From Chondrosia reniformis (taxonomy: Eukaryota > Porifera > Demospongiae > Chondrillida > Chondrillidae), in assembly GCA_947172415.1 (NCBI GenBank), contig OX359193.1, forward strand, positions 6,256,501 to 6,320,500: a stretch of 64,000 nucleotides of DNA, in the 5' to 3' direction. The notes under the pieces were generated by a model, which was not told where the DNA came from, did not search any database, and worked only from the letters and a program-made list of their open reading frames with translations. The position numbers were made by a program, and so were the translations under genes. This document shows, piece after piece, positions 8,017 to 42,119 of the stretch (within the stretch, counting starts at the first letter, position 1; every line of letters begins with the position of its first letter).

Positions 8017-9228
8017 ATGATGGTTAATAAAAGCTTCCTTCTGCTAGTCAAAGTATTCTTACTTCTACCTTCACTAATTCATTCTCAAGATTCTGATAGA
8101 GTTTGCATTGATCCAAAAGGTGATAGAGTCTCCTTTGATATTATTGGTGTGCCTGGACAAGAAGGTCCGACTGGTCCAGTGGGTCCAAAAGGCAACAAAG
8201 GAAACAAGGGAGACATTGGTCTTGTAGGGCCCAAAGGCAGTCAAGGTGAGAGGGGAGATCAAGGTGTGAAAGGTGCACAAGGAGTGAGAGGTTTATCAGG
8301 CCTTCCTGGAGCACCAGCTGCAGGTGAGAGAGGTGAACCTGGTAATCCTGGTAATCAAGGTCCCCAAGGACCCAGGGGAGTGCCTGGTCTACCTGGTGAC
8401 ACACAGCTAACAGAGGCTGAGAGAGACATCATTCTTAGCAATCTGACTGCAGTGTTGGATAACTTGGTTAAAGAGAGAACTGCTGAACTAGAGAGTGCTC
8501 TCTATTGCTACAGAGGTCAGTGTGGCGAGTGTAGTAACAGATCCATCAGCACACTGTGTGGAGTGAGAGGTCCATGGAGAAGAGTGGCTCACATCAACAT
8601 GTCAGAGGAAGGAGCAGTGTGTCCTCCTGGACTGAGAGAGGCTTCTAATGAGACTCTTGGCATAAAGGCTTGTGGTCGTAGTGTTAGGTGCTCCTCTGTT
8701 GACTTTCCAACTGGTATGTCTTCATACACTCAGATATGTGGAATAGTTAGAGGTTATCAACATGGGAGCAATAATGCATTTGGACCATCCACATATTTCC
8801 CAAATCTAGCTAATCTAGACAGTCCTTATGTTGATGGTATCTCCATCACTCGAGGATCTCCCCGTCAACATGTCTGGACATATGCTGCCCGAACAACTGA
8901 GAGTGATGGTGGATTTTGTCCCTGTGCTAACAATCCTAATGTGAGAAGTGAAGTACCAGATTTTGTTGGTGATGACTATTATTGTGAATCAGGCTTTGTT
9001 AACCCTCCATCTGATGGTATATATAATTTAAGACCTACCTCATGGAATGATCCATTGTGGGACGGAGAAGGATGCACCATTCCAGAGAACAGATGTTGTG
9101 ATAGATATGGTTGGTTTCATAAGAGTGTCTCTTGTACCACTGATAACATTGAGGTCAGGTGGTGTGGGAATGGTCCAATTTCAGGAGAAAATGTCTTTAC
9201 TGATTTGGTGGAGATATGGGTGCTCTAA
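8017..9228 (+). CDS. collagen-stalked secreted protein, array gene 1
   Basis: Intronless, 403 aa. N-terminal signal peptide ([18 protein letters not shown]), a short linker with one Cys, about 28 Gly-X-Y triplets, a helical neck (from [12 protein letters not shown] to ELESALY), then a cysteine-rich head of about 240 residues. The head has conserved [42 protein letters not shown] and [10 protein letters not shown], and ends DLVEIWVL. The predicted product is an extracellular, probably trimeric protein. It differs from its neighbours in two ways: a 6-base insertion gives GAPAAGERG and breaks the Gly-X-Y rhythm once, and its upstream region matches neither promoter type of the array. A second ATG lies one codon downstream. 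Variable head patches: GMSSYTQ, TYF, TTESDG and GPISG. Ligand unknown. Confidence 0.85.
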
Positions 9229-10800
9229 CATTGTGTGAATATACATACGTACTTAGATGAACTGTAACATGCAACATTTTTCATTTTCACATAAAAAGGT
9301 GTTGGTTTTCTACACATCTTTGACCATACTATTTCATATATATCTTTGACCATACTACTACTACTACTACTACATCATATTATATCTATACATTATTGTC
9401 CAAATTTGTAATTTCATTAAAGACTTTGTAATTTCTTTGACTATGCTGCTTTTGGATACATTTTCATATACGTATATATGCCAACACATTTGCTGGCAGA
9501 GAGTAATGGTACATAAGTATTGTCCCATGTATATGCTAATCATGTACCAGATTGTTTGGTTGTCATTTTGAATATTTACTTGTAACAAACATTAATTAAA
9601 TTATATACTGCATGTATATATGTAAGTATAGACATCAGAAAGTCAGTTACGTACATGATGAACTTCAAGTATGCAAACATGTCAATTAATCTTAAAACAC
9701 CTACCACTGCACAATTGTCACAATCACTATGGACTCCATGGTTTTAGTCAATAGACTTGTTCTGCACACAGCAAAAAAGTGAGCCATGAATCAGAAAGAT
9801 GAAATCAGTGATTAGTACAGCAGATTAGCTGATTGTATAAATGATAACAAACAAATTTCCCATATATGTATTACATACTAATTTTTACATGTATGTATGT
9901 AGGTAGATTGCCATATAGTATACACGTGCACATTTAAATATACGTATCGTATATATATAGCAATTTCAATTTTCAATCCAATTCCTGTCAACTCTACATA
10001 CATATACATGTTATAAGTAAAACTGCTACATTAATATAGGTTGTATACAGTATCTTCAGTTATACCTTGGTACGGCCATGGGAGAAGACAAGGAAGGAAG
10101 AGATAAACAATGCAAGTAATCAAATCAATATATTAAACTTAGAAACTACGTATTACAATTACAATTAACACATAAATAAGACATTGTTTTCATTCAGGAC
10201 AAAAGGTGAAGGAGAGAAAATGAAATGAAAGAGAGATCTAGAGTGAGAGTGAGAGATGGAGAGGAGAGAAAATGAAGGGAGAGTGAGGGTGATAGCCAGA
10301 GAGGAAGTGGAGATACGTAGAAAAAGGGGAAGGAGTGAGAACTGGCAAAACCTGTTTACTTACCTTGTTATATAAAACAGCACGCTTCATGATCACTGGT
10401 ATTGACAGTGATCTTTGGATTGGACTGGATGAATAGAAAAAAATGGGTATAGATATGGGTGCATGGATGGTGTTATATATGATGTATAATAGTTACATTA
10501 TACTTTCAATTTTTACTGCTTTCTATTCTTATACGTACGTATATGTCAATATTAATATGTTCTAATGGTAATAATATATAATTATTTTGTTTACTATCTT
10601 AAATATACATACAGTATGTATAAATCACAGGACCAAATCTCAGGTTTCACATAAAACAAAACTGCCAGTTTCCAAGGGTAATAAAGTGAAATGGTTAATT
10701 TGGAGGCTTCAATGTGCCTTGTTTATACATCCTTTGAAACCCAATAAACCACAAAAACGTTTCTAATAGGTTTCATGCTGATTGATTTTGTCCACATTTT
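9229..10800. repeat. type I spacer with fossil head-domain fragment
   Basis: Landmarks in order: ATTAAA polyadenylation-like signal in TTTCATTAAAGACTTTG, a short (CTA)n run near 9355, a decayed collagen-head fragment around 9478-9575, a conserved AT-rich stretch, a GA-rich block (about 10200-10340) and a minus-strand splice-bounded block (10364-10424). The same order recurs after genes 3, 4, 5, 7 and 10. No functional gene is visible. Confidence 0.7.
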
Positions 10801-10807
10801 AGCTATG

Positions 10808-10815
10808 TATAAAAG
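10808..10815 (+). promoter_or_regulatory. TATA box of array gene 2 (type I promoter)
   Basis: TATAAAAG lies 42 bases before the ATG. The other type I promoters carry CCATAAAAGC at the same place. A start site about 30 bases downstream leaves a leader of only about 10-20 bases. This supports the ATGGCTAA start and argues against the longer in-frame upstream ATGs seen before genes 3, 4, 6 and 11. Confidence 0.6.
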
Positions 10816-10856
10816 CTAAAAGTAATCAATTTCATTCGTATATAGGACAGTTTACA

Positions 10857-12065
10857 ATGGCTAATAAGTATTTCCTTCTGTTCATTAAAGTATTCTTACT
10901 TTTGCCTTCACTAATTCATTCTCAAGATTCTGATAGAGCTTGCATTGATCCAAAAGGTGATAGAGTCTCCTTTGATATTATTGGTGTGCCTGGACAAGAA
11001 GGTCCCTCTGGTCCAGTGGGTCCAAAAGGTGACAAAGGAAACAAGGGAGACATTGGTCTTGTAGGGCCCAAAGGCAGTCAAGGTGAGAGGGGAGATCAAG
11101 GTGTGAACGGTGCACAAGGAGTGAGAGGCTTACCAGGCCTTCCTGGAGCACCAGGTGAGAGAGGTAAACCTGGTAATCCTGGTAATCAAGGTGCCCAAGG
11201 ACCCAGGGGAGTGCCTGGTCTACCTGGTGACACACAGCTAACAGAGGCTGAGAGAGACCTCATCCTTAGCAATCTGACTGCAGTGTTGGATAACTTTGTT
11301 AAAGAGAGAACTGCTGAACTAGAGAATGCTCTCTATTGCTACAGAGGTCAGTGTGGTGAGTGTAGTAACAGATCCATCAGCACACTGTGTGGAGTGAGAG
11401 GTCCATGGAGAAGAGTGGCTCACATCAACATGTCAGAGGAAGGAGCAGTGTGTCCTCCTGGACTGAGAGAGGCTTCTAATGAGACTCTTGGCATAAAGGC
11501 TTGTGGTCGTAGTGTTGATAACAAGTGCTCTTCTGTTGATTTTCCAACTGGTAGGTCTTCGTACACTCAGATATGTGGAATAGTTAGAGGTTATCAACAT
11601 GGGAGCAATTATGCATTTGGACCATCCACAAATTTCCCAAATCTAGCTAATCTAGACAGTCCTTATGTGGATGGTATCTCCATCACTCGAGGATCTCCTC
11701 GTCAACATGTCTGGACATATGCTGCCCGAACAACTGAGAGTCATGGTGAATTTTGTCCCTGTGCTGACAATCCTAATGTGAGAAGTGAAGTACCAGATTT
11801 TGTTGGTGATGACTATTATTGTGAATCAGGCTTTGTTAACCGACCATCCGATGGTAGATATTATTTAAGATCCACCTCCTGGAAAGATCCATTGTGGGAC
11901 GGAGAAGGATGCACCATTCCAGAGAACAGATGTTGTGATAGATATGGTTGGTTTCATAAGAGTGTCCCTTGTAACACTGATAATGTGGAGGTCAGGTGGT
12001 GTGGGAATATGCCAGCCAGTAAAGAAAATGTCTTTACTGATTTGGTGGAGATATGGGTGCTCTAA
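10857..12065 (+). CDS. collagen-stalked secreted protein, array gene 2
   Basis: Intronless, 402 aa, with signal peptide, uninterrupted Gly-X-Y stalk, neck and cysteine-rich head. It has a type I promoter but is followed by an NF1-tail spacer, so it is a hybrid unit. An AATAAA polyadenylation signal starts about 11 bases after the stop (GTGTGAATAAATATG). Head patches: GRSSYTQ, SNYAF, TNF, TTESHG, NRPSDGR, KDPLWDG and MPASK. CADNP replaces the usual CANNP, and PCNTDNVEV replaces PCTTDNIEV. It appears intact. Secreted and probably trimeric by analogy with collagen-stalked proteins. Confidence 0.88.
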
Positions 12066-12402
12066 CATTGTGTGAATAAATATGAACTGTATAACATGCA
12101 ACATTTTGTACTCTTGCATTTTCAAAATTTACATGAAATGTTTGTTGGTGTTCTACACGTCTCTGACTACATTGTGCATAAACATTATGTTGTCATTTCA
12201 TTAAAGACTTTGTAATCTCTTTGATTATGCTGCTTTTGGTTAACTATGCGTACATATACTAAGAATTAAATTATTATATGCATATACTTTTTAGAATACA
12301 CTTGTTGAAATTGGTCATTTCACACATAATATACAAAACTAAATTATTTGATGTCATTAAAATAATCTGTATAAACAATGCCACAAACTTAACAAGTAAA
12401 AA

Positions 12403-13041
12403 TCGCACTTCAGTTTCTGATTTCTTAGGACTACTACACTTGTTCAATAAGGCACTCAGGTAGGCATTCAGGAGACTAGCTCTCTTTGCAGCACTTTCAG
12501 GTTCCTGGATAAATACGTATAAATAAATCAAGGAACAATAGTAGACTAAACATTGAAGGAGAGGCTAAATAAGGGTTAACAGATACAAATGCTGATAATG
12601 TATATACGTATATGTACCTTTAAAATGGTGAGGTAAATTTCACTAGGCCACTAAATCCAATGTCTGCAGATATAGAGGAGTCACATGGTAATCACATGGT
12701 AATCACATTGGAGTCACATGACATTCACAGTGTAATAACATGCAGGTACGTACACAGTAACTGTACCTTTCACAAAGGTTTCTGGGATATTCAGAGATAA
12801 TTCTTGGAAAGCCACTTTTATCAAATGCTGGATTGCCATGATAGTCTCATGTTGGTGGCTTTGGAGTAACAACTGAGACATGTGCTTTTGGAGAACTGAA
12901 TATCTGTACACATGTTACAGAGACACTGACCCATGGAAGTCAAACAGGCAACATGGTATCACTTACATTATAGGGTAGACATCTTTAAACACATCACAGG
13001 CTTGACTGAAGAAAGTGTACAAAACTTTTGTTTTGGCAGAA
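12403..13041 (-). pseudogene. NF1 tail copy 1 (decayed terminal exons)
   Basis: Antisense to the array, this holds copies of the last NF1 exons: the terminal exon (12403-12504, [19 protein letters not shown]), the 47-nt exon, the [14 protein letters not shown] exon (about 12768-12904) and part of the exon before it. It is clearly broken: the stop codon is changed to CGA so the frame reads on, the small exon has lost one A in its A run, the [14 protein letters not shown] exon is cut at about 13041, and the exon before that is missing. Most decayed of the five copies. Confidence 0.85.
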
Positions 13042-13674
13042 CCTTAAATACTTCACAAAATGTGTTAACAGTAAAGGAAGTTTGAGACAGCTATATATAA
13101 AGCTGCATATGAGTACTTCTGTACCAAATTGTACGTATGCTATGAATAGTAAGGTTAAACATACTAAAGTCATTTACTTGTGAAATAAAATGTCAAACAA
13201 GCACAAGTATAAGGAGTTTAATATGAAGAATAAAATAGTTGTAGCTCCATATCAGCTGATTTGGTTGAGTTGCAGCTGTAAATGTACGTACTTATTCTTA
13301 TAGATGTCTTGTGAATGCTGTCACCTACACGTACGTAGTTGTAGTCACCAGACCATCTGTGGTAATCACTTAAATGCAAAATAAAACCTCAGCTAGTCAC
13401 TGTGAAAGAGTAAATTTTGAGCAGGTGTGACAAAATGCAAAATATCAATTTTGATTGAAGAAAATGATTACCATGCACCACTAAGTTCATTAGGACATTG
13501 AATGAATTTTTGTTGGTGTTCTACACTTCTTTGACCATACAACATCGTGCATATATTGTCATCTCATTAAAGACTTTGTAATTGATTTGACTATGCTGCT
13601 TTTTGCAATTGGTTTACATTTTATATAATTAATCTTATCTATACATTAAATTCATACTTTTTAGAATAAACTTG

Positions 13675-13775
13675 TCCCTTGTATCACTGATAACATTGAG
13701 GTCAGGTTGTGTGGAAATACTCCATTTGCCAATGAAAATGTCTTTACTGATTTGGTAGAGATATGGGTGCTCTAA
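13675..13775 (+). pseudogene. 3' fragment of a collagen-array gene
   Basis: About 100 bases encode PCITDNIEV, then a changed RLCGN (RWCGN elsewhere; TGG to TTG), TPFAN, and [13 protein letters not shown] with a TAA. It is fused upstream to NF1-tail spacer sequence (CTTTTTAGAATAAACTTG) at a CTTG shared by both partners, which suggests a microhomology-mediated deletion. A normal type I spacer follows, so this is the residue of a lost gene between genes 2 and 3. Confidence 0.8.
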
Positions 13776-15336
13776 AATTGTGTGAATATATAATTGTAAC
13801 GAATAACCACGTACACATTTATATGTATATACTCTAAAGCTTGAATGCATTCATATGTACATATACGTATATGTGTGTGTGCAGTAACTTTACATATGTT
13901 CACTTATATTAGTAATTTTTCTGCAATTCGTTCATTTTGTCTGCATGTGCCTTTGTAATTCACTCATGATCACAAGCTGTTCGTGGCGTTTGTATTTCAA
14001 GTGACTATAAGTTACCTTTTAAAGGGTGTTCAGGTATATATATACGATATAACATCACTAACTATACAGGTTTTGCATTTACTTTATAGAGATTCAACAG
14101 GCCTACGTATATACGTACAGTATATGTAAGTATAGACATCAGAAAGTCAGTTATGTACACAATGAACTTCAATTAATCTTAGAACACCTACCACTGCACA
14201 ATTGTCACAATCACTATGGACTCCATGGTATTAGTCAATAGACTTGTTCTGCATACAACAAAAATGTGAACCATGAATCAGAAAGATGAAATCAGTGATT
14301 AGTACAGCAGATTAGCAGACTGTATAAATGATAACATACAAATTGCCGCGTATTATATAATAATTTTTATACGTATGTAGGTACGTAGATTATCATATAT
14401 GTATACACGTGCACATTTACTGCACATATATGTAGCAATTTCCATTTTCAATCCAATTCCTGTCAACTCTACATACATATGCATGTTATAAGCAAAACTG
14501 CTACATTAATATAGGTTGCATACAGTATCCATTGGTACGGCCAAGGGAGAAGACAAAAAAGGAAGAGATGAACAATGAAAGTAATCAAATCAATATATTA
14601 AACTTAAAAATTATTACAATTACAATTAACACATAAATAAGACATTGTTTCATTCAGGACAAAAGGTATCTCAAATGTATATTAATGAAGGAGAGAAAAT
14701 GAAATGAAAGAGAGATCTAGAGTGAGAGTGAGAGATGGAGAGGAGAGAAAATGAAGGGAGAGGGAGGGTGATAGCCAGAGAGGAAGTGGAGGTAGAAAAA
14801 GGGGGAAGGAGTGAGAACTGATAAAACCTGTTTACTTACCTTGTTATATAAAACAGCACGCTTCATGATCACTGGTATTGACAGTGATCTTTGGATTGGA
14901 CTGGATGAATAGAAAAAAGTGAATATAGATATGGGTGCATGGATGGCGTTATATATGATGCATAATAGTTACATTATACTTTCAATTTTTACTGCTTTCT
15001 ATTCTTATATGTTCGTATATGTCAATATTAATGTGTTCTAATGGTAATGCATAGTGTATCATCATAAATAAAATTATTACGTTTACTATCTTACATATAC
15101 GTATGTATATCACAGGACCAAATCTCAGATTTCACATAAGCAAAACTGCCAGTTTCCAAGGATACTAAAGTGAAATGGTTAATTTGGAGGCTTCAATGTG
15201 CCTTGTTTATACATTCTTTGAAACCCAATAAACCACAAAAACGTTTCTAATAGGTTTCATGCTGATTGATTTTGTCCACATTTTAGCCATAAAAGCTAAA
15301 AGTAATCAAGTTCATATGTATATAGGACAGTTTACA

Positions 15337-16542
15337 ATGGCTAACAAGTATTTCCTTCTGTTTGTCAAAGTATTCTTACTTCTACCTTCACTTCATTCTC
15401 AAGATTTTGACAGAGCTTGCATTGATCCAAAAGGTGATAGAGTCTCCTTTGATATTATTGGTGTGCCTGGACAAGAAGGTCCCTCTGGTCCAGTGGGTCC
15501 AAAAGGTGACAAAGGAAACAAGGGAGACATTGGTCTTGTAGGGCCCAAAGGCAGTCAAGGTGAGAGGGGAGATCAAGGTGTGAACGGTGCACAAGGAGTG
15601 AGGGGTTTACCAGGCCTTCCTGGAGCACCAGGTGAGAGAGGTGAAGCTGGTATTCTAGGTACTCAAGGTCCCCAAGGACCCAGGGGAGTGCCTGGTCTAC
15701 CTGGTGACACACAGCTAACAGAGGCTGAGAGAAACATCATTCTTAACAATCTGACGGCAGTGTTGGATAACTTTGTTAAAGAGAGAACTGCTGAACTTGA
15801 GAATGCTCTCTATTGCTACAGAGGTCAGTGTGGTGAGTGTAATAACAGATCCATCAGCACACTGTGTGGAGTGAGAGGTCCATGGAGAAGAGTGGCTCAC
15901 ATCAACATGTCAGAGGAAGGAGCAGTGTGTCCTCCTGGACTGAGAGAGGCTTCTAATGAGACTCTTGGCATAAAGGCTTGTGGTCGTAGTGTAGATAACA
16001 AGTGCTCCTCTGTTGATTTCCTAACTGGTAGTACATCATACACTCAGATATGTGGAATAGTTAGAGGTTATCAACATGGGAGCAATCATGCATTTGGACC
16101 ATCCACAAATCACCCAAATCTAGCTAATCTAGACAGTCCTTATGTGGATGGTATCTCCATCACTCGAGGATCTCCTCGTCAACATGTCTGGACATATGCT
16201 GCCCGATTAACTGAGAGTGATGGTGGATTTTGTCCCTGTGCTAACAATCCTAATGTGAGAAGTGAAGTACCAGATTTTGTTGGTGATGACTATTATTGTG
16301 AATCAGGCTTTGATAACCCTCCATCTGATGGTAGACCTTATTTAAGACCCACCTCATGGAATGATCCATTGTGGGACGGAGAAGGATGCACCATTCCAGA
16401 GAACAGATGTTGTGATAGATATGGTTGGTTTCATAAGAGTGTCCATTGTACCACTGATAACATTGAGGTCAGGTGGTGTGGAAATAATGCACTTGCCATT
16501 GAAAATGTCTTTACTGATTTGGTGGATATATGGGTGCTCTAA
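15337..16542 (+). CDS. collagen-stalked secreted protein, array gene 3
   Basis: Intronless, 401 aa from the ATGGCTAACAAG start; an in-frame ATG at 15259 exists, but the TATA-like CATAAAAGC lies between the two. Signal peptide, 28 Gly-X-Y triplets (with the variant [10 protein letters not shown]), neck and head. Type I promoter and type I spacer. Head patches: [31 protein letters not shown] and NALAI. The C terminus reads VDIWVL instead of VEIWVL, and the Cys pattern is preserved. Looks functional. Confidence 0.87.
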
Positions 16543-18177
16543 CATTGTGTGAATATACGTACGTACTTAGATGAACTGTAACATGCAACATTTTGCATTT
16601 TCACATAAAAGGTGTTGGTTTTCTACACATCTTTGACCATACTATTTCATATATATCTTTGACCATACTACTACTACTACTGCTACTACTACTACTATCT
16701 ATATTATATCTATACATTATTGTCCAAATTTGTAATTTCATTAAAGACTTTATAATTTCTTTGACTATGCTGCTTTTGGATACATTTTCATATACGTATA
16801 TATGCCAACACATTTGCTGGCAGATTTATACAGCTAGAGATGAGAGTAATGGTACATACGTATTGTCCCCTGTATATGCTAATCCTAATGTAAGAACTAT
16901 ATATACTACATGTACCAGATTGTTTGGTTGTCATTTTGAATATTTACTTGTAACAAACATTAATTAAATTATATACTGTACATATATATGTACGTAGGTA
17001 TAAACATCAGAAAGTCAGTTACATACATGATGAACTTCAAGTATGCAAACATGTCAATTAATCTTAGAACACCAACCACTGCACAATTGTCACAATCACT
17101 ATGGACTCCATGGTATTAGTCAATAGACTTGTTCTGCACACAGCAAAACGTAAGCCATGAATCAGAAAGATGAAATCAGTGATTAGTACAGCAGACTAGC
17201 AGACTGTATAAATGATAACAAACAAATTTCCCATATACGTATTACATAATAATTTTTATACGGATGTAGGTAGATTGCCATATATGTATACACGTACACA
17301 TTTACATATATAGCAATTTCAATTTTCAATCCAATTCCTGTCAACTCTACATACGTACATATGCATGTCATAAGACAAGGAAGGAAGAGATAAACAATGC
17401 AAGTAATCAAATCAATATATTAAACTTAAAAATTATTACAATTACAATTAACACATAAATAAGACATTGTTTTCATTCAGGACAAAAGTGTATATTAATG
17501 AAGGAGAGAAAATGAAATGAAAGAGAGATCTAGAGTGAGAGTGAGAGATGGAGAGGAGAGAAAATGAAGGGAGAGGGAGGGTGATAGCCAGAGAGGAAGT
17601 GGAGGTAGAGAAAGGGGGAAGGAGTGAGAACTGATAAAACCTGTTTACTTACCTTGTTATATAAAACAGCATGCTTCACTGGTATTGACAGTGATCTTTG
17701 GATTGGTCTGGATGAATAGAAAAAAGTGGATATAGATATATATGATGGATAATAGTTACATTATACTTTCAATTTTTACTGCTTTCTATTCTTATATGTA
17801 TGTATATGTCAATATTAATGTGTTCTAATTGTAATGCATACCACATTTATATAAAATTATTTTGTTTACTATCTTACATATATGTACAGTATGTATATCA
17901 TAGGACCAAATCTCAGGTTTCACCTAAACAAAACTGCCAGTTTCCAAGGATACTTTGTGAAATGGTTAATTTGGAGGCTTCAATGTGCCCTGTTTATACA
18001 TCCTTTGAAACCCAATAAACCACAAACACGTTTCTAAAAGGTTTCATGCTGATTGAAACCTGATCTTATTTTGTCCTATGATACATGTATATATATAACT
18101 ACATTGATTATTGTAGCCACATTTTAGCCATAAAAGCTAAAAGTAATCAAGTTCATACGTATATAGGACAGTTTACA
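16543..18177. repeat. type I spacer between genes 3 and 4
   Basis: Order as in the other type I spacers: ATTAAA signal, (CTA)n at about 16667-16696, head-domain fossil, AT-rich stretch, GA-rich block (17505-17635), splice-bounded minus-strand block and CATAAAAGC promoter element. Apart from the fossil I see no gene. Confidence 0.7.
16797..16965 (+). pseudogene. fossil of the collagen head domain inside the type I spacer
   Basis: Translated, this region gives CQHICWQIYTARDESNG, then YANPNVRT, then FGCHFEY. These line up in order with [24 protein letters not shown] and the DDYYCE region of the living genes. The nucleotide match is patchy (GCTAATCCTAATGTAAGAAC against CAATCCTAATGTGAGAACTG). The same fossil is at about 19636-19785, 22545-22700, 27710-27865, 35745-35930 and 36385-36540, so the spacer already contained a dead gene before it was amplified. 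Confidence 0.75.
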
Positions 18178-19383
18178 ATGGCTAACAAGTATTTCCTTCT
18201 ACTTGTCAAAGTATTCTTACTTCTACCTTCACTTCATTCTCAAGATTCTGACAGAGTTTGCATTGATCCAAAAGGTGATAGAGTCTCCTTTGATATTATT
18301 GGTGTACCTGGACAAGAAGGTCCCTCTGGTCCAGTGGGTCCTAAAGGTGACAAAGGAAACAAGGGAGACATTGGTCTTGTAGGGCCCAAAGGCAGTCAAG
18401 GTGAGAGGGGAGATCAAGGTGTGAATGGTGCACAAGGAGTGAGAGGTTTACCAGGCCTTCCTGGAGCACCAGGTGAGAGAGGTGAACCTGGTAATCATGG
18501 TAATCAAGGTCCTCCAGGACCCAGGGGAGTGCCTGGTCTACCTGGTGACACACAGCTAACAGAGGCTGAGAGAAACATCATTCTTAGCAATCTGACTGCA
18601 GTGTTGGATAACTTGGTTAAAGAGAGAACTGCTGAACTGGAGAATGCTCTCTATTGCTACAGAGGTCAGTGTGGTGAGTGTAATAACAGATCCATCAGCA
18701 CACTGTGTGGAGTGAGAGGTCCATGGAGAAGAGTGGCTCACATCAACATGTCAGAGGAAGGAGCAGTGTGTCCTCCTGGACTGAGAGAGGCTTCCAATGA
18801 GACTCTTGGCATAAAGGCTTGTGGTCGTAGTGTTAATAACAAGTGCTCCTCTGTTGATTTTCCAACTGGTAGTTCTTCATACACTCAAATATGTGGAATA
18901 GTTAGAGGTTATCAACATGGGAGCAATAATGCATTTGGACCATCCACAAATCACCCAAATCTAGCTAATCTAGACAGTCCTTATGTTGATGGTATCTCCA
19001 TCACTCGTGGATCTCCTCGTCAACATGTCTGGACATATGCTGCCCGATCAATTGAGAGTCGTGGTGAATTTTGTCCCTGTGCTAACAATCCTAATGTGAG
19101 AAGTGAAGTACCAGATTTTGTTGGTGATGACTATTATTGTGAATCAGGCTTTGTTAACCCTCCATCTGAGGGTAGATTAAATTTAAGACCCACCTCATGG
19201 AATGATCCATTGTGGGACGGAGAAGGATGCACTATTCCAGAGAACAGATGTTGTGATAGATATGGTTGGTTTCATAAGAGTGTCTCTTGTACCACTGATA
19301 GCATGGAGGTCAGGTGGTGTGGAAATGATCTATTTGTCAATGAAAATGTCTTTACTGATTTGGTGGAGATATGGGTGCTCTAA
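18178..19383 (+). CDS. collagen-stalked secreted protein, array gene 4
   Basis: Intronless, 401 aa. Signal peptide residues 1-22, Gly-X-Y from G42 to G123 (28 unbroken triplets), neck about 125-158 ending in [12 protein letters not shown], head 165-401 with about 18 Cys. Two N-glycosylation sequons are conserved through the family (NLT in the neck, NMS in the head). Head patches: [33 protein letters not shown] and DLFVN. Almost identical to gene 5; the two lie 2914 bp apart in a recent tandem duplication. Type I promoter and spacer. Intact. Confidence 0.9.
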
Positions 19384-19473
19384 CATTGTGTGAATATACG
19401 TAGATGAACTGTAACATGCAACATTTTGCATTTTCACATAAAAAGGTGTTGGTTTTCTACACATCTTTGACCA

Positions 19474-19475
<2 letters not shown>

Positions 19476-21091: not shown

Positions 21092-22297
21092 ATGGCTAAC
21101 AAGTATTTCCTTCTACTTGTCAAAGTATTCTTACTTCTACCTTCACTTCATTCTCAAGATTCTGACAGAGCTTGCATTGATCCAAAAGGTGATAGAGTCT
21201 CCTTTGATATTATTGGTGTGCCTGGACAAGAAGGTCCCTCTGGTCCAGTGGGTCCTAAAGGTGACAAAGGAAACAAGGGAGACATTGGTCTTGTAGGGCC
21301 CAAAGGCAGTCAAGGTGAGAGGGGAGATCAAGGTGTGAATGGTGCACAAGGAGTGAGAGGTTTACCAGGCCTTCCTGGAGCACCAGGTGAGAGAGGTGAA
21401 CCTGGTAATCATGGTAATCAAGGTCCTCCAGGACCCAGGGGAGTGCCTGGTCTACCTGGTGACACACAGCTAACAGAGGCTGAGAGAAACATCATTCTTA
21501 GCAATCTGACTGCAGTGTTGGATAACTTGGTTAAAGAGAGAACTGCTGAACTGGAGAATGCTCTCTATTGCTACAGAGGTCAGTGTGGTGAGTGTAATAA
21601 CAGATCCATCAGCACACTGTGTGGAGTGAGAGGTCCATGGAGAAGAGTGGCTCACATCAACATGTCAGAGGAAGGAGCAGTGTGTCCTCCTGGACTGAGA
21701 GAGGCTTCCAATGAGACTCTTGGCATAAAGGCTTGTGGTCGTAGTGTTAATAACAAGTGCTCTTCTGTTGATTTTCCAACTGGTAGGTATTCGTACACTC
21801 AGATATGTGGAATAGTTAGAGGTTATCAACATGGGAGCAATAATGCATTTGGACCATCCACAAATCACCCAAATCTAGCTAATCTAGACAGTCCTTATGT
21901 TGATGGTATCTCCATCACTCGTGGATCTCCTCGTCAACATGTCTGGACATATGCTGCCCGATCAATTGAGAGTCGTGGTGAATTTTGTCCCTGTGCTAAC
22001 AATCCTAATGTGAGAAGTGAAGTACCAGATTTTGTTGGTGATGACTATTATTGTGAATCAGGCTTTGTTAACCCTCCATCTGAGGGTAGATTAAATTTAA
22101 GACCCACCTCATGGAATGATCCATTGTGGGACGGAGAAGGATGCACTATTCCAGAGAACAGATGTTGTGATAGATATGGTTGGTTTCATAAGAGTGTCTC
22201 TTGTACCACTGATAGCATGGAGGTCAGGTGGTGTGGAAATGATCTATTTGTCAATGAAAATGTCTTTACTGATTTGGTGGAGATATGGGTGCTCTAA
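21092..22297 (+). CDS. collagen-stalked secreted protein, array gene 5
   Basis: Intronless, 401 aa, architecture as gene 4. It differs from gene 4 mainly at SDRAC (SDRVC in gene 4) and in the first variable head patch (GRYSYTQ instead of GSSSYTQ); all later patches (TNH, SIESRG, EGRLN, SMEV, DLFVN) are the same. The GRYSYTQ form is shared with genes 6 and 11, so a single patch seems to have been exchanged. Type I promoter (with CATAAAGC, one A shorter) and type I spacer. Intact. Confidence 0.9.
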
Positions 22298-22387
22298 CAT
22301 TGTGTGAATATACGTAGATGAACTGTAACATGCAACATTTTGCATTTTCACATAAAAAGGTGTTGGTTTTCTACACATCTTTGACCA

Positions 22388-24008: not shown

Positions 24009-24911
24009 ATGGCTAACAAGTATTTCCTTCTACTTGTCAAAGTATTCTTACTTCTACCTTCACTTCATTCTCAAGATTCTGACAGAGCTTGCATTGATCC
24101 AAAAGGTGATAGAGTCTCCTTTGATATTATTGGTGTGCCTGGACAAGAAGGTCCGACTGGTCCAGTGGGTCCTAAAGGTGACAAAGGAAACAAGGGAGAC
24201 ATTGGTCTTGTAGGGCCCAAAGGCGGTCAAGGTGAGAGGGGAGATCAAGGTGTGAATGGTGCACAAGGAGTGAGAGGTTTACCAGGCCTTCCTGGAGCAC
24301 CAGGTGAGAGAGGTGAACCTGGTAATCCTGGTACTCAAGGTCCCCAAGGACCCAGGGGAGTGCCTGGTCTACCTGGTGACACACAGCTAACAGAGGCTGA
24401 GAGAAACATCATTCTTAGCAATCTGACTGCAGTGTCGGATAACTTGGTTAAAGAGAGAACTGCTGAACTGGAGAATGCTCTCTATTGCTACAGAGGTCAG
24501 TGTGGTGAGTGTAGTAACAGATCCATCAGCACACTGTGTGGAGTGAGAGGTCCATGGAGAAGAGTGGCTCACATCAACATGTCAGAGGAAGGTGCCGTGT
24601 GTCCTCCTGGACTGAGAGAGGCTTCTAATGAGACTCTTGGCATAAAGGCTTGTGGTCGTAGTGTTAATAACAAGTGCTCTTCTGTTGATTTTCCAAATGG
24701 TAGGTATTCGTACACTCAGATATGTGGAATAGTTAGAGGTTATCAAGATGGGAGAAACAATGCATTTGGACCATCCACATATTTCCCAAATCTAGCTAAT
24801 CTAGACAGTCCTTATGTTGATGGTATCTCCATCACTCATGGATCTCCTCATCAACATGTCTGGACATATGCTGCCCGCAGAGATGAGAGGCCTTCCTGGA
24901 GCACCAGGTGA
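24009..24911 (+). pseudogene. collagen-stalked gene 6, truncated and rearranged 3' end
   Basis: It is normal from signal peptide to WTYAAR, then the frame enters foreign sequence and stops at 24911. The rest of the head is missing. In its place is AGAGATGAGAG, about 37 bases copied from the stalk (GCCTTCCTGGAGCACCAGG and following), AGAGATGAGAG again, and then GGTGCTCTAACATTG, the last codons of a normal gene. It would make a stalk plus about half a head with unpaired Cys. Minor substitutions (THGSPHQHV for [14 protein letters not shown] for AVLDN) fit relaxed constraint. Type I promoter; NF1-tail spacer follows. Probable pseudogene. Confidence 0.8.
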
Positions 24912-26839: not shown

Positions 26840-27489
26840 ATGGCTCATAAATGCTTCCTTCTGCTAGTCAAAATATTCTTACTTTTACCTTCACTTCATT
26901 CTCAAGACTCTGACAGAGTTTGCATTGATCCAAAAGGTGATAGAGTCTCCTTTGATATTATTGGTGTGCCTGGACAAGAAGGTCCCTCTGGTCCAGTGGG
27001 TCCAAAAGGTGACAAAGGAAACAAGGGAGACATTGGTCTTGTAGGGCCCAAAGGCGGTCAAGGTGAGAGGGGAGATCAAGGTGTGAACGGTGCACAAGGA
27101 GTGAGAGGTTTACCCGGCCTTCCTGGAGCACCAGGTGAGAGAGGTGAACCTGTAGAGATGAGAGGGATGGTGGATTTTGTCCATGTGCTAACAATCCTAA
27201 TGTGAGAACTAAAGTACCAGATTTTGTTGGTGATGACTATTATTGTGAATCAGGCTTTGATAACCCTCCATCTGATGATAGATATCCTTTAAGACCCACC
27301 TCATGGAATGATCCATTATGGGATGGAGAAGGATGCACCATTCCAGAGAACAGATGTTGTGATAGATATGGTTGGTTTCATAAGAGTGTCCCTTGTACCA
27401 CTGATAACATTGAGGTCAGGTGGTGTGGAAATGGTGCACATGACAATGAAAATGTCTTTACTGATTTGGTGGAGATATGGGTGCTCTAA
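26840..27489 (+). pseudogene. collagen-stalked gene 7, internal deletion
   Basis: The first part (26840-27205) encodes signal peptide and stalk up to GERGEP, then VEMRGM and a stop. The sequence resumes at GATGGTGGATTTTGTCC, in the middle of the head, in another frame, and runs to the normal C terminus (patch GAHDN, ending DLVEIWVL at 27489). The neck and the first half of the head, roughly 550 bases, are gone. The junction carries AGAGATGAGAG, as in gene 6. Type II promoter; type I spacer follows. Pseudogene. Confidence 0.85.
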
Positions 27490-28381
27490 CATTGTGTGAA
27501 TAAATATGAACTGTATAACATGCAACATTTTGTACTCTTGCATTTTCAAAATTTACATGAAATGTTTGTGGTGTTCTACACGTCTTTGACCATACTACTA
27601 CTACATCATAATCAATTAATTTGTAATTTCATTAAAGACTTTGTAATTTCATTAAAGACTTTGTAATTTCTTTGATTATGCTGCTTTTGGATACCTTCTC
27701 ATATACATAAATATGCCAACACATTTGCTGGCAGATCTATACAGCTAGAGATGAGAGTAATATGGTACGTAAGTATTGTCCCCTGCATGTATATGCTAAT
27801 CCTAATGTAAGAACTATATATACTACATGTACCAGATTGTTTGGTTGTCATTTTGAATATTTACATGTAACAAACATTAATTAAATTATATTCTGCACGT
27901 ATATATGTACGTAGGTATAGACATCAGAAAGTCAGTTACATACATGATGAACTTCAAGTATGCAAACATGTCAACACAATAATTTTTATAAGTAAGTATG
28001 TAGGTAGATTGCCATATATGTATACACGTGCACATTTACATATATAGCAATCTCAATTTTCAATCCAATTCCTGTCAACTCTATATACATACAGTACATA
28101 TACATGTTATAAGTAAAGCTGCTACATTAATATAGGTTGCATACAGTATCTTCAGTTATACCTTGGTACGGCCATGGGAGAAGACAAGGAAGGAAGAGAT
28201 AACAATGCAAGTAATATATTAAACTTAAAAATTATTACAATTACAATTAACACATAAATAAGACATTGTTTTCACTCAGGACAAAAGTGTATATTAATGA
28301 AGAAGAGAAAATGAAATGAAAGAGAGATCTAGAGTGAGAGTGAGAGATGGAGAGGAGAGAAAATGAAGGGAGAGGGAGGGT

Positions 28382-28606
28382 GACACACAGCTATCAGAGG
28401 CTGAGAGAAACATCATTCTTAGCAATCTGACTGCAGTACTGGATAACTTGGTTAAAGAGAGAACTGCTGAACTGGAGAATAGATATGGTTGGTTCCATAA
28501 GAGTGTCCCTTGTACCATTGATAACATTGAGGTCAGGTGGTGTGGGAATGGTCCAATTTCTGAAGAAAATATTTTCACTGATTTGGTTGACATTTGGGTG
28601 CTGTGA
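28382..28606 (+). pseudogene. collagen-array gene fragment 8 (neck fused to tail)
   Basis: The GA-rich block of a type I spacer runs straight into GTGACACACAGCTATCAG, the start of the neck, through a shared GTGA. The neck reads normally to ELEN and then jumps in frame to [11 protein letters not shown], near the C terminus (patch GPISE, ending [13 protein letters not shown], stop TGA). It is an open frame of about 72 codons with no ATG, signal peptide or stalk. Product of two deletions; not expected to be expressed. Confidence 0.8.
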
Positions 28607-30803: not shown

Positions 30804-32009
30804 ATGGTAAATAAATGCTTTCTTCTGCTAGTCAAAGTATTCTTACTTTTACCTTTACTTCATTCTCAAGACTCTGATAGAGCTTGCATTGATCCAAAAG
30901 GTGATAGAGTCTCCTTTGATATTATTGGTGTGCCTGGACAAGAAGGTCCAGCTGGTCCAGTGGGTCCAAAAGGCAACAAAGGAAACAAGGGAGACATTGG
31001 TCTTGTAGGGCCCAAAGGCAGTCAAGGTGAGAGGGGAGATCAAGGTGTGAATGGTGCACAAGGAGTGAGAGGTTTACCAGGCCTTCCTGGAGCACCAGGT
31101 GAGAGAGGTGAAGCTGGTAGTTCTGGTAATCAAGGTCCCCCAGGACCCAGGGGAGTGCCTGGTCTACCTGGTGACACACAGCTAACAGAGGCTGAGAGAA
31201 ACATCATTCTTAGCAATCTGACTGCAGTGTTGGATAACTTGGTTAAAGAGAGAACTGCTGAACTAGAGAATGCTCTCTATTGCTACAGAGGTCAGTGTGG
31301 TGAGTGTAGTAACAGATCCATCAGCACACTGTGTGGAGTGAGAGGTCCATGGAGAAGAGTGGCTCACATCAACATGTCAGAGGAAGGAGCAGTGTGTCCT
31401 CCTGGACTGAGAGAGGCTTCTAATGAGACTCTTGGCATAAAGGCTTGTGGTCGTAGTGTTGATAACAAGTGCTCTTCTGTTGATTTTCCAAATGGTAGTT
31501 CTTCGTACACTCAAATATGTGGAATAGTTAGAGGTTATCAAGATGGAGGTAATAATGCATTTAGACCATCTGGTCAATCCCCAAATCTAGCTAATCTAGA
31601 CAGTGCTTATGTTGATGGTATCTCCATCACTCGAGGATCTCCTCGTCAACATGTCTGGACATATGCTGCCCGATCAATTGAGAGTCATGGTGGATTTTGT
31701 CCCTGTGCTAACAATCCTAATGTGAGAAGTGAAGTACCAGATTTTGTTGGTGATGACTATTATTGTGAATCAGGCTTTGTTAACCCTCCATCCGATGGTA
31801 GATATCATTTAAGACCCACCTCATGGAATGATCCATTGTGAGACGGAGAAGGATGCACCATTCCAGAGAACAGATGTTGTGATAGATATGGTTGGTTTCA
31901 TAAGAGTGTCCCTTGTACCACTGATAACATTGAGGTCAGGTGGTGTGGGAATGGTCTATTTGGCAATAAAAATGTCTTTACTGATTTGTTGGAGATATGG
32001 GTGCTCTAA
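30804..32009 (+). pseudogene. collagen-stalked gene 9, premature stop in the head
   Basis: Full length and in frame except for one substitution: DPLWDGEGC reads DPL-stop (TGG to TGA, 31839-31841). The remaining codons through DLLEIWVL and TAA at 32009 are intact. The truncated product of 345 aa would lack the last five Cys, including the [10 protein letters not shown] segment. Type II promoter with TATATATA about 50 bases before the ATG. Unusual residues: FRPSGQS for FGPST. Either a young pseudogene or a null allele of the sequenced individual. Confidence 0.8.
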
Positions 32010-32346
32010 CATTGTGTGAATAAATATGAACTGTATAACATGCAACATTTTGTACTCTTGCATTTTCAAAATTTACATGAAATGTTTGTTGGTGTTCTAC
32101 ACGTCTTTGACTACATTGTGCATATACATTATGTTGTCAGTTCATTAACGACTTTGTAATTTCATTGATTATGCTGCTTTTGGTTAACTATGTATACATA
32201 TACTAAGCATTAAATTATTATATATATACTTTTTAGAATACACTTGCTGAAATTGGTCATTTCACACATAATATACAAAACTAAATTATTTGATGTTATT
32301 AAAATAACCTTTAGATAAAGAATGTCAAAAATGTTACTAGTAAAAG

Positions 32347-34342: not shown

Positions 34343-35545
34343 ATGGCTCATAAATATTTCCTTCTGCTAGTCAAAGTATTCTTACTTCTACCTTCACTTC
34401 ATTCTCAAGACTCTGATAGAGCTTGCATTGATCCAAAAGGTGACAGAGTCTCCTTTGATATTATTGGTGTGCCTGGACAAGAAGGTCCCTCTGGTCCAGT
34501 GGGTCCAAAAGGTGACAAAGGAAACAAGGGAGACATTGGTCTTGTAGGGCCCAAAGGCAGTCAAGGTGAGAGGGGAGATCAAGGTGTCAAAGGTGCACAA
34601 GGAGTGAGGGGTTTACCAGGCCTTCCTGGAGCACCAGGTGAGAGAGGTGAAGCTGGTATTCTAGGTACTCAAGGTCCCCAAGGACCCAGGGGAGTGCCTG
34701 GTCCACCTGGTGACACACAGCTAACAGAGGCTGAGAGAAACATCATTCTTAGCAATCTGACTGCAGTGTTGGATAACTTGGTTAAAGAGAGAACTGCTGA
34801 ACTGGAGAGTGCTCTCTATTGTTACAGAGGTCAGTGTGGTGAGTGTAATAACAGATCCATCAGCACACTGTGTGGAGTGAGAGGTCCATGGAGAAGAGTG
34901 GCTCACATCAACATGTCAGAGGAAGGAGCAGTGTGTCCTCCTGGACTGAGAGAGGCTTCTAATGAGACTCTTGGCATAAAGGCTTGTGGTCGTAGTGTAG
35001 ATCGTCAGTGCTCTTCTGTTGATTTTCCAACTGGTATGTCTTCGTACACTCAGATATGTGGAATAGTTAGAGGTTATCAAGATGGAGGTAATAATGCATT
35101 TGGACCATCCACAAACCCAAATCTAGCTAATCTAGACAGTCCTTATGTTGATGGTATCTCCATCACTCGAGGATCTCCTCGTCAACATGTCTGGACATAT
35201 GCTGCCCGATCAACTGAAAGTCGTGGTGGATTTTGTCCATGTGCTAACAATCCTAATGTGAGAACTGAAGTACCAGATTTTGTTGGTGATGACTATTATT
35301 GTGAATCAGGCTTTGTTAACCCTCTATCTGATGGTAGACCTTATTCAAGACCCACCTCATGGAGAGATCCATTGTGGGACGGAGAAGGATGCACCATTCC
35401 AGAGAACAGATGTTGTGATAGATATGGTTGGTTTCATAAGAATGTCTTGTGTACCACTGATAACATTGAGGTCAGGTGGTGTGGGAATACTCCACTTGCT
35501 TATGAAAATGTCTTTACTGATTTGGTGGAGATATGGGTGCTCTAA
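34343..35545 (+). CDS. collagen-stalked secreted protein, array gene 10
   Basis: Intronless, 400 aa. Signal peptide ([20 protein letters not shown]), unbroken stalk with [10 protein letters not shown] (as gene 3) and GPPGDTQ, neck, head. Head patches: [22 protein letters not shown], a patch one residue shorter before NLANL (TN), [29 protein letters not shown] and TPLAY. All conserved Cys are present. Type II promoter, but a doubled type I spacer follows. The most divergent head among the intact genes. Confidence 0.88.
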
Positions 35546-37810: not shown

Positions 37811-39016
37811 ATTGCTAATAAGTATTTCCTTCTACTTGTCAAAGTATTCTTACTTCTACCTTCACTTCATTCTCAAGACTCTGACAGAGTTTGCATTGAT
37901 CCAAAAGGTGATAGAGTCTCCTTTGATATTATTGGTGTGCCTGGACAAGAAGGTCCCTCTGGTCCAGTGGGTCCAAAAGGTGACAAAGGAAACAAGGGAG
38001 ACATTGGTCTTGTAGGGCCCAAAGGCAGTCAAGGTGAGAGGGGAGATCAAGGTGTGAATGGTGCACAAGGAGTGAGAGGTTTACCAGGCCTTCCTGGAGC
38101 ACCAGGTGAGAGAGGTGAACCTGGTAATCCTGGTACTCAAGGTCCCCAAGGACCCAGGGGAGTGCCTGGTCTACCTGGTGACACACAGCTAACAGAGGCT
38201 GAGAGAAACATCATTCTTAGCAATCTGACTGCAGTGTTGGATAACTTGGTTAAAGAGAGAACTGCTGAACTGGAGAATGCTCTCTATTGCTACAGAGGTC
38301 AGTGTGGTGAGTGTAATAACAGATCCATCAGCACACTGTGTGGAGTGAGAGGTCCATGGAGAAGAGTGGCTCACATCAACATGTCAGAGGAAGGAGCAGT
38401 GTGTCCTCCTGGACTGAGAGAGGCTTCTAATGAGACTCTTGGCATAAAGGCTTGTGGTCGTAGTGTTAATAACAAGTGCTCTTCTGTTGATTTTCCAAAT
38501 GGTAGGTATTCGTACACTCAGATATGTGGAATAGTTAGAGGTTATCAAGATGGGAGAAACAATGCATTTGGACCATCCACATATTTCCCAAATCTAGCTA
38601 ATCTAGACAGTCCTTATGTTGATGGTATCTCCATCACTCGAGGATCTCCTCGTCAACATGTCTGGACATATGCTGCCCGAACAACTGAGAGTGATGGTGA
38701 ATTTTGTCCATGTGCTAACAACCCTAAATTGAGAACTGAAGTACCAGATTTTGTTGGTGATGACTATTATTGTGAATCAGGCTTTGATAACCCTCCATCT
38801 GATGATAGATATCCTTTAAGACCCACCTCATGGAATGATCCATTGTGGGATGGAGAAGGATGCACCATTCCAGAGAACAGATGTTGTGATAGATATGGTT
38901 GGTTTCATAAGAGTGTCCCTTGTACCACTGAAAACATTGAGGTCAGGTGGTGTGGAAATGGTGCACATGACAATGAAAATGTCTTTACTGATTTGGTGGA
39001 GATATGGGTGCTCTAA
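37811..39016 (+). CDS. collagen-stalked protein, array gene 11, start codon lost
   Basis: The body is intact (401 codons plus stop), but the usual ATGGCTAA start reads ATTGCTAA at 37811. The frame is open upstream to an ATG at 37706, which would add 35 residues and bury the signal sequence. That upstream ATG precedes the CATAAAAGC promoter element, so it is probably not in the mRNA. Unless ATT is used, the gene would not make a secreted protein. Head patches: [36 protein letters not shown] and GAHDN. Its 5' half resembles gene 6 and its 3' end gene 7. Type I promoter, NF1-tail spacer. Confidence 0.7.
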
Positions 39017-39386
39017 CATTGTGTGAATAAATATGAACTGTATAACATGCAACATTTTGTACTCTTGCATTTTCAAAATTTAATTACATGAAATGTTTGT
39101 TGGTGTTCTACACGTCTTTGACTACATTGTGCATATACATTATGTTGTCATTTCATTAAAAACTTTGTAATCTCTTTGATTATGCTGCTTTTGGTTTGGA
39201 TTTATATAATTAATCTTATCTATACGTACATATACATACTAAGCATTAAATTATTATATACATATATACCTTTTAGAATACACTTGTTGAAATTGGTCAT
39301 TTCACACATAATATACAAAACTAAATTATTTGATGTCATTAAAATAACCTGTAGATAAACAATGTCAAAAACTTAACAAGTAAAAA

Positions 39387-40441
39387 TCACACTTCAGTTT
39401 CCGATTTCTTAGGACTACTACACTTGTTCAATAAGGCACTCAGGTAGGCATTCAGGAGACTAGTTCTCTTTGCAGCACTTTCAGGTTCCTGGATAAATAC
39501 AGTAGGTACTTATAGCAAGAACAATAATTGACTAAACATTGAAGGAGAGACTAAAAATATACTAAATGAAAGTTAACAGCTACAAATGATGATAATGTAT
39601 GTACCTTTAAAAATGGTGAGGTAAATTTCACTAAGATAAAGATGAGTCACATGGTAATCACATGGTAATCACATTGGAGTCACATGACATTCACACTGTA
39701 ATAACATACATGCATGTACACAGTAACTCTACCTTTCACAAAGGTTTCTGGGATATTCAGAGATGACTCTTGGAAAGCCACTTTTATCAAATGCTGGATT
39801 GCCATGATAGTCTCATGCTGGTGGCTTTGGAGTAACAACTGAGACATGTGCTTTTGGAGAACTGAATATCTGTGCACATGTTACAGAGACACTGACCCAT
39901 GGAAGTCAAACAGGAAATGTGGTATCACTTACATTATAGGGTAGACATCTTTAAACACATCACAGGCTTGACTGAGGAAAGTGCAGAATCATCAGAATAA
40001 ATAACTGCTCCAGACTGTAAGTGGATAAATCACAACATTTAAATTAACCATTTCTTTGAGTGTTCCTTAAATACTTCACAAACAGCAAAGGTATTTCACA
40101 AGTGTTTGTATAAAGCTGCATGAGTACTTTTGTACCAAATTGTATGCTACGAAGAGTACGTAGGTTAAACACACTAAAGTCATTTACTTGTGAAGGAAAA
40201 TGTCAAACAAGCACAGTATAAGGATTTCAATAGGACTTAGAAATAGTTGAATATCTCTACTGTGTTTCCTACTTCCAAATAGTATTACCACTTACTATTA
40301 ATATGAGGAGGAGAACCCTGATCTGATTAGATTCCACAGCCTTATTCTCCAGCAGTAGTGGCAACACATCATCTCTGGTGTATGTGTTCATTGTCCAACA
40401 CTAAAAAAGTGAAAAAAGAGCTTTCCAAATAAGGACATTGC
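39387..40441 (-). pseudogene. NF1 tail copy 5 (several deletions)
   Basis: The terminal exon (stop at 39387-39389) and the [14 protein letters not shown] exon are kept. The 47-nt exon has lost its 5' part with its acceptor, the [14 protein letters not shown] exon lacks about 19 bases, and the first exon is cut after about 120 bases (CATTGTCCAACAC runs into CTAAAAAAGTG). The partial upstream exon still ends at the common breakpoint, 40441. Clearly dead. Confidence 0.85.
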
Positions 40442-40913
40442 AACTCTAATATGTGCATTAAATTCTAGTGTTCAAACTTAATGTTAGATATTCAGCAAAA
40501 ATATACTGTTTGCCATGAAATTTTCAAGAACTCATTGGATATACGTACTTTATAGATATCTGTGAATACTGTCACCTAGTTGCAGCTCCATATCAGCTGA
40601 TTTGGGAGAGTGACAGGAGCACTTGGGGCTGAAACATCTGACAATCGAGAAGAGACAACAAAACTGCGTCTTCAGACACTCTAAAAGTCGAAAGATGATC
40701 CTTTCAAAAGATAATTGCTTCAGGTGTTTACTTAAAGTCCAGTCCCCACTCATATGAAAGCCATATTTATATTGAGCTTTACATCTTATTAGTTTATGCA
40801 TGTCATTAGAGGTCTGCTGTATAAACACTAAGGGAGGTCATGCCCTTATTACATGTACCTATATATATTTCATTTGGAGTTCATTATCCTAATAATCTAG
40901 CTAGCCAGTAAGG
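40442..40913 (+). promoter_or_regulatory. type II promoter region of gene 12
   Basis: Starts at the NF1 breakpoint. Contains the repeat-derived block (GACACTCTAAAAGTCGAAAG, about 40647-40715), TATATATATTTCATTTGG near 40859 and TAATCTAGCTAGCC before ATGGTAAAT. Almost identical to the region upstream of gene 9. Confidence 0.55.
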
Positions 40914-42119
40914 ATGGTAAATAAATGCTTTCTTCTGCTAGTCAAAGTGTTCTTACTTCTACCTTCACTTCATTCTCAAGACTCTGATAGAGTTTGCATT
41001 GATCCAAAAGGTGATAGAGTCTCCTTTGATATTATTGGTGTGCCTGGACAAGAAGGTCCAGCTGGTCCTGTGGGTCCAAAAGGCAACAAAGGAAACAAGG
41101 GAGACATTGGTCTTGTAGGGCCCAAAGGCAGTCAAGGTGAGAGGGGAGATCAAGGTGTGAAAGGTGTACAAGGAGTGAGGGGTTTATCAGGCCTTCCTGG
41201 AGCACCAGGTGAGAGAGGTGAACCTGGTAATCATGGTACTCAAGGTCCCCAAGGACCCAGGGGAGTGCCTGGTCTACCTGGTGACACACAGCTAACAGAG
41301 GCTGAGAGAGACATCATTCTTAGCAATCTGACTGCAGTGTTGGATAACTTGGTTAAAGAGAGAACTGCTGAACTGGAGAATGCTCTCTATTGCTACAGAG
41401 GTCAGTGTGGTGAGTGTAGTAACAGATCCATCAGCACACTGTGTGGAGTGAGAGGTCCATGGAGAAGAGTGGCTCACATCAACATGTCAGAGGAAGGAAC
41501 AGTGTGTCCTCCTGGACTGAGAGAGGCTTCCAATGAGACTCTTGGCATAAAGGCTTGTGGTCGTAGTGTTGATAACAAGTGCTCCTCTGTTGATTTTCCA
41601 ACTGGTAGGTCTTCGTACACTCAGATATGTGGAATAGTTAGAGGTTATCAAGATGGGAGCAATCATGCATTTGGACCATCCACAAATCACCCAAATCTAG
41701 CTAATCTAGACAGTCCTTATGTTGATGGTATCTCCATCACTCAAGGATCTCCTCGTCAACATGTCTGGACATATGCTGCCCGATTAACTGAGAGTCGTGG
41801 TGGATTTTGTCCATGTGCTAACAATCCTAATGTGAGAACTGAAGTACCAGATTTTGTTGGTGATGACTATTATTGTGAATCAGGCTTTGTTAACTCTCCA
41901 TCTGATGGTAGACATTATTTAAGACCCACCTCATGGAATGATCCATTGTGGGACGGAGAAGGATGCATCATTCCAGAGAACAGATGTTGTGATAGATATG
42001 GTTGGTTTCATAAGAGTGTCTCTTGTACCACTGATAACATTGAGGTCAGGTGGTGTGGGAATATGCCAGTCAGTATAGAAAATATATTTACAGAGTTGGT
42101 GGAGATATGGGTGCTCTAA
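40914..42119 (+). CDS. collagen-stalked secreted protein, array gene 12
   Basis: Intronless, 401 aa; signal peptide, stalk ([17 protein letters not shown]), neck and head, all conserved Cys present. Head patches: [41 protein letters not shown] and MPVSI; the C terminus reads [13 protein letters not shown]. It is the last gene of the array and is convergent with the functional NF1 tail, whose stop lies 713 bases away. The arrangement gene 12 plus NF1 tail is probably closest to the ancestral unit that was amplified leftwards. Confidence 0.88.

Follow-up and report, generated by a model that had tools for sequence, protein, structure and literature searches.

The window analysed here, 64,000 nucleotides of chromosome 5 (C5, 6256501-6320500) of the demosponge Chondrosia reniformis, contains a tandem array of genes whose products join a collagen stalk to a nearly constant head, and the differences between these heads cluster in five short patches. 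The same head positions vary in independent arrays elsewhere in the genome. We suggest, with somewhat more belief than doubt, that the products of the array are secreted, oligomeric and lectin-like, and serve in recognition through binding loops that have diversified. The genome searched comprised 117,379,552 bases in 15 contigs; the available text of the assembly paper gives odChoReni1.1 as 117.37 Mb, in 14 chromosomes and the mitochondrion (PMC12181767).

Structure of the array

An earlier note, made from the letters of the window, had described a tandem collagen-stalked family with short variable patches in a constant head, and gene-by-gene inspection bears this description out. Between 8017 and 42119 on the + strand we found 11 head-to-tail copies, with starts 2.8-4.5 kb apart, and two fragments (13665-13792 and 28379-28603; Table 1). 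In the earlier list of about 12 loci, what had been numbered gene 8 is the 28.4-kb fragment carrying GPISE, and later numbers shift by one. The framework had been described as almost unchanged across the loci. Seven copies are complete ATG-to-stop genes (g1-g5, g9 and g11), but g10 has ATT at the start codon of a frame open throughout, and three copies are broken: g8 by a single TGA at codon 346, within the DPLWDG motif, g6 by loss of the last third of the head, and g7 by loss of its middle.

The full-length copies, 400-403 amino acids long, are each encoded in one open frame. They begin with a hydrophobic N-terminus, which we called a signal peptide by eye, and end in a head with 13-14 Cys. 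The stalk, previously given as a constant 28 Gly-X-Y triplets, is an unbroken run of that length in nine of the 11 copies, but is interrupted in g1 (19+9) and has 21 triplets in g7. AlphaFold2 (AF2), run on eight window paralogues, returned a mean predicted local distance difference test score (pLDDT) of 31.5; the neck helix (residues 5-37 of the segment from 11232) was the sole part above 70.

Mean head identity within the window array is 91%. All the patch strings listed earlier were recovered: those before ENVFTDL, including TPFAN in the 13.7-kb fragment, those in GxxSYTQ (MS, RS, ST, SS, RY), those after FGPS (TYF, TNF, TNH, GQS, TN) and those after YAAR (TTESDG, LTESRG, SIESRG, STESRG). 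Patch 5, between invariant flanks, takes six distinct five-residue strings in the seven complete genes, and seven in eight when g10 is included.

Parallel variability in independent arrays

Besides the window array (8 genes), the comparison covered arrays C9 (10), C6 (8), C5b, in another part of C5 (8), and C14 (4); more arrays exist. Each of the five is monophyletic in a protein tree, four of them with support of 100; the support printed for the window array is 21, a label possibly displaced by re-rooting. Between the window head and those of the other lineages, identity is only about 40-70%. Per-column amino-acid variability of the head correlates positively in each of the 10 pairs of arrays (rho 0.22-0.49). 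Under a circular-shift null the observed value was unreached in nine of the 10 pairs, and for the window array against C5b it was reached by 1 of 206 shifts. This parallel variability exceeds chance and is the strongest result of our analysis. Indel runs within arrays also lie near patch columns in 15 of 16 cases, with no single array beating its own shift null.

Rates of change and recombination

For each array, the a priori patch columns were picked from the other arrays only. The ratio of nonsynonymous to synonymous rates (dN/dS, or omega) at these columns was 1.32 in the window array against 0.25 for the rest (likelihood-ratio test, LRT, of equality 16.6, p 4.5e-5), 1.00 against 0.25 in C9 (equality LRT 17.5) and 1.15 against 0.66 in C14 (equality LRT 0.9). 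With a narrower column set, omega was 3.46 in C9 (LRT against 1, 4.0) and 1.99 in the window array (LRT against 1, 1.9). Model M2a was preferred over M1a in all five arrays, with twice the log-likelihood difference at 34-61 on single trees and 13.5-36.5 on segment trees. Amino-acid change at the patches is raised and position-specific; positive selection is not proven.

The site-wise dN/dS check proposed in the earlier note had a divided outcome: the patch value lies above that of the rest, but its bootstrap range in the window array is 0.76-2.29 and the LRT against omega = 1 is 0.7. Other results, too, weigh against a repertoire of selected binding loops. Patch omega is below 1 in C6 (0.44 against 0.22, equality LRT 5.6) and C5b (0.58 against 0.38, equality LRT 2.1). 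With a site-variable synonymous rate (alpha), the gain from a class whose nonsynonymous rate (beta) exceeds alpha was small in four of the five arrays (6.9 on one tree and 1.5 on segment trees for the window array, at most 2.0 for C6, C5b and C14), and stood out in C9 only (17.2 and 8.7). Nor was a known lectin sugar-binding site found in the head.

Alternatively, the head could perform one constant job while its patches drift as unconstrained loops, with gene conversion homogenising the rest and local mismatch blocking conversion at the patches, so that no repertoire is needed. We regard this as possible, although on the doubtful side. In the window array, C9 (broad column set) and C14, omega at the patches lies close to 1, and it is significantly above 1 nowhere except marginally in C9 with the narrow set. 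Raised synonymous differences at variable codons would be expected, because the patches would escape homogenisation. In a descriptive comparison, made without a significance test and with the variable codons chosen in the same array, these differences exceed those at least 11 codons away in all five arrays (0.191 against 0.038 in the window array), and are raised 1-2 codons from the variable codons in all five as well. A separate synonymous rate for the a priori patch columns was significant in C5b and C14 only. Drift does not readily explain the diversity of patch 5 between its invariant flanks or the preference for M2a in every array, and more than 150 copies of this layout are hard to account for if the copies are interchangeable.

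Neighbouring-site incompatibility gave a recombination signal in full coding sequences of all four arrays tested (p 0.002) and in the heads of three of the four. The window paralogues are mosaics, which fits a process in which gene conversion would homogenise the framework and shuffle the patches. We also considered hyper-targeted mutation of the patches, which our results do not separate from conversion combined with selection.

Relatives of the head

C1q, collectins and ficolins had been named as parallels for these proteins. The architecture is indeed alike, comprising a signal peptide, a short collagen stalk, a neck and a Cys-containing C-terminal head, but none of three window genes matched Pfam Fibrinogen_C, Lectin_C or C1q at E<=1, and we reject membership of the C1q, collectin or ficolin families for the window genes on that basis. 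As regards the head, the likeness is probably convergent. Collagen was matched in all three genes scanned (5.7e-14 to 2.3e-17), with no other Pfam match, and searches of Pfam, NCBIfam and PDB with the window head returned nothing significant. We found no confirmed relative that would point to bacteria or viruses as the source of the head; 28 stretches in genome contigs matched a pattern, none of them confirmed, and viral contigs gave no match.

Several sister subfamilies carry a YCDM..CGV.GGW subdomain directly before the head. In one member (L032) NCBIfam GGGWT (NF040941) was matched at 1.6e-9 and Pfam COLFI at 2.2e-5, the latter below its cut-off; the GGGWT-type N-terminal subdomain scored at E<=1 in three of 14 members, with no match in the window protein. 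A 12-member profile (A5) matched Xenopus XEEL (3.9e-6), intelectin-1 (3.2e-5 and 3.5e-5) and a serum lectin (2.6e-4) in PDB, always within its first 63-75 positions. Aligned by hhalign, A5 and intelectin gave a probability of 93% over columns 3-68, against 7% for a global alignment. Intelectin was preferred over the genome's own fibrinogen-domain proteins (93% against 11%), and alignments with the genome's own fibrinogen-related domains covered only the N-terminal 31-40 columns (probabilities 4% and 11%). The N-terminal 60-75 residues of sister subfamilies therefore align with vertebrate intelectins (XEEL, intelectin-1), whereas the remaining ~195 head residues do not, the C-terminal calcium- and glycan-binding half of intelectin is not matched, and no intelectin match was obtained with the window genes.

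Placozoan intelectins offer a second comparison. As described in the portion of the source available, those of Trichoplax sp. H2 are secreted, tandemly clustered and expanded. A short fibrinogen-like stretch at their N-terminus can be aligned with vertebrate intelectins, whereas the C-terminal remainder is conserved only within the placozoan set. Ten Cys are conserved in most of them, and according to the authors collagen repeats and coiled coils are absent (PMC6321704). Compared by description rather than by sequence, this layout resembles that of several sponge subfamilies. In contrast, the sponge family has collagen and coiled coils, and the window genes are without a recognisable fibrinogen-like part. 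Because the sister-subfamily subdomain aligns and the placozoan proteins show the same layout, the head is likely an offshoot of an intelectin/fibrinogen-like lectin lineage, and the window subfamily would then have lost its N-terminal part in recognisable form.

The family across the genome

Exact matches to a back-translated DPLWDG pattern number 159 in the whole genome, compared with 1 for the reversed control. A search with one query scored at least 150 head places among 326 candidates, three other queries added further places, and the matches listed lie on many chromosomes. The modules before the head differ. Pfam Collagen is present in seven of the 14 members of head alignment A2, and L024 and L029 have N-termini that by eye appear coiled-coil-like and secreted. 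Long hydrophobic segments precede the head in L025, L026 and L028 (19-residue hydropathy up to 2.35-2.92, with 14-16 windows above 1.6, compared with a maximum of 1.64 and one such window in g2), and these may be membrane anchors.

Several related loci deserve mention. At C9 0.36-0.46 Mb, L063 and L064 have several fibrinogen-like N-terminal repeats before the same kind of head, with variable loops of their own, and are a distinct subfamily. At C7 0.50-0.63 Mb, five head copies spaced over ~115 kb have equal scores and lengths, each being 49% identical to the query and lying in a frame of 385-388 amino acids, which suggests recent large duplications. L059, L060 and L062 (C6 ~2.14 Mb and C14 ~1.89 Mb) are true fibrinogen-domain genes, and C6 2.12-2.64 Mb holds a large cluster of GGGWT-positive frames, one of which was read.

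Proposed function and alternatives

We favor a recognition repertoire because the framework is constant, the same patches vary in independent arrays, the heads are borne on collagen stalks and there are more than 150 copies. To this extent the repertoire proposed in the earlier note is partly supported, although its head is not that of a C1q, collectin or ficolin. In the mechanism that we infer, the signal peptide would export the proteins, the 28-triplet collagen stalk and helical neck would presumably trimerise them, and the disulfide-rich head would bind ligand via a surface formed by the five patches as short loops. Tandem duplication would supply copies, gene conversion would keep the framework uniform and reshuffle the patches, and selection, or lack of constraint, would let the loops diverge into a repertoire of differing ligand specificities. 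Snail FREPs (fibrinogen-related proteins) and other diversified invertebrate lectins are multigene families of secreted, lectin-like proteins credited with generating diversity in recognition, and somatic mutation has been reported for FREPs; their stalks and head are different. Microbial surface molecules would be the likeliest ligands in this sponge, a filter feeder densely colonised by bacteria; that it hosts many bacteria is stated in the available text of the assembly paper (PMC12181767).

A bolder version, which we regard as possible but doubtful, is an antigen-receptor-like modular repertoire in which a single variable head domain, with at least 159 motif copies, is borne on interchangeable N-termini, either soluble (collagen, coiled-coil) or membrane-anchored, and has binding loops diversified and shuffled by conversion, possibly individual-specific. 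If true, it would serve both symbiont discrimination and self recognition.

Among open-licence papers on sponges, considered by title and opening abstract, we found no description of this collagen-stalked family. Partial texts report that fibrinogen-like and collagen genes respond to microbial patterns in two other sponges (PMC6208332), and that NLRs, another receptor class, are expanded in sponges (PMC12909245).

A role in allorecognition, in which the heads are self markers or receptors that vary from one individual to another and the arrays take part in accepting or rejecting grafts, seems improbable. Tandem arrays with mosaic variable patches would fit such a locus, sponge grafting is specific and repeatable and is taken by the authors of one study, in the part available, to reflect a polymorphic genetic system (PMC5450542), and the species is described in the excerpted assembly paper as highly plastic and as shedding outgrowths (PMC12181767). 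However, the family occupies many chromosomes rather than one polymorphic locus, and the same part of the grafting study mentions no lectin or fibrinogen gene (PMC5450542). It is very improbable that these are mesohyl collagens of a structural or short-chain kind whose head variation is incidental: the stalk is a genuine triple-helix repeat (Pfam Collagen), in a sponge described in the available assembly text as supported by abundant collagen fibrils, without spicules (PMC12181767), but it is only about 84 residues long, the same head is also carried by N-termini other than collagen (coiled-coil-like in L024 and L029, hydrophobic-anchor in L025, L026 and L028), and a structural role does not predict diversification of the same five head positions.

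Other features of the window and genome

Decayed head pieces (ARDESNGT..NPNVRT) at 16575-16967 and 27740-27820, downstream of intact or broken copies, are possible relics or conversion donors. Beyond the array, neurofibromin-like exons lie on the - strand at 47315-47773 and 50093-50434 (PH_NF1 8.2e-9, RasGAP 2.3e-12). Long G-rich/C-rich minisatellites at 51457-52110, 56146-56822 and 58916-59774, open in several frames on both strands, are probably introns of the neurofibromin-like gene. Elsewhere in the genome, 14 of 43 Peptidase_C1 matches were read for the silicatein marker; the catalytic-Cys motif was present at seven of the 14 loci, in each case with Cys and in none with Ser, which agrees with a spicule-less sponge but proves nothing.

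Table 1. Positions of the gene copies, fragments and g2 protein regions in the window
Feature	Positions	Strand	Description	Basis
g1	8017..9228	+	complete gene, 403 aa; collagen 19+9 triplets; patch 5 GPISG	
g2	10857..12065	+	complete gene, 402 aa; reference copy; patch 5 MPASK	
g2 collagen stalk	10983..11234	+	residues 43-126; 28 uninterrupted triplets	Pfam Collagen 4.3e-17, triplet count
g2 neck	11235..11327	+	predicted helix, putatively trimerising	AF2
g2 head	11328..12062	+	13 Cys beyond residue 170; nothing significant in Pfam, NCBIfam or PDB	
Patch 1	11553..11558	+	g2 residues 233-234	
Patch 2	11628..11636	+	g2 residues 258-260	
Patch 3	11730..11750	+	g2 residues 292-298	
Patch 4	11835..11864	+	g2 residues 327-336	
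Patch 5	12009..12023	+	g2 residues 385-389; varies in all five tested arrays	
Fragment	13665..13792	+	3' end of head	
g3	15337..16542	+	complete gene, 401 aa; patch 5 NALAI	
g4	18178..19383	+	complete gene, 401 aa; patch 5 DLFVN	
g5	21092..22297	+	complete gene, 401 aa; near copy of g4; patch 5 DLFVN	
g6	24009..24911	+	truncated; last third of head missing	
g7	26840..27489	+	internal deletion; protein middle missing; patch 5 GAHDN	
Fragment	28379..28603	+	neck fused in frame to last 41 aa of head; GPISE; upstream sequence unrelated	
g8	30804..32009	+	full length; TGA stop at 31839-31841; patch 5 GLFGN	
g9	34343..35545	+	complete gene, 400 aa; patch 5 TPLAY	
g10	37811..39016	+	open throughout; start codon ATT; patch 5 GAHDN	
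g11	40914..42119	+	complete gene, 401 aa; patch 5 MPVSI	

Implications

For the sequenced specimen, the available text of the assembly paper mentions RNA-seq (ERR10177766) and an alternate haplotype (GCA_947172445.1; PMC12181767), which allow tests of variation and expression without new sequencing. Our results suggest a second, unrelated origin of ficolin-type heads on collagen stalks. With more than 150 copies and parallel variable positions, the family provides defined candidates for how sponges may discriminate among symbionts, food microbes, pathogens and each other.

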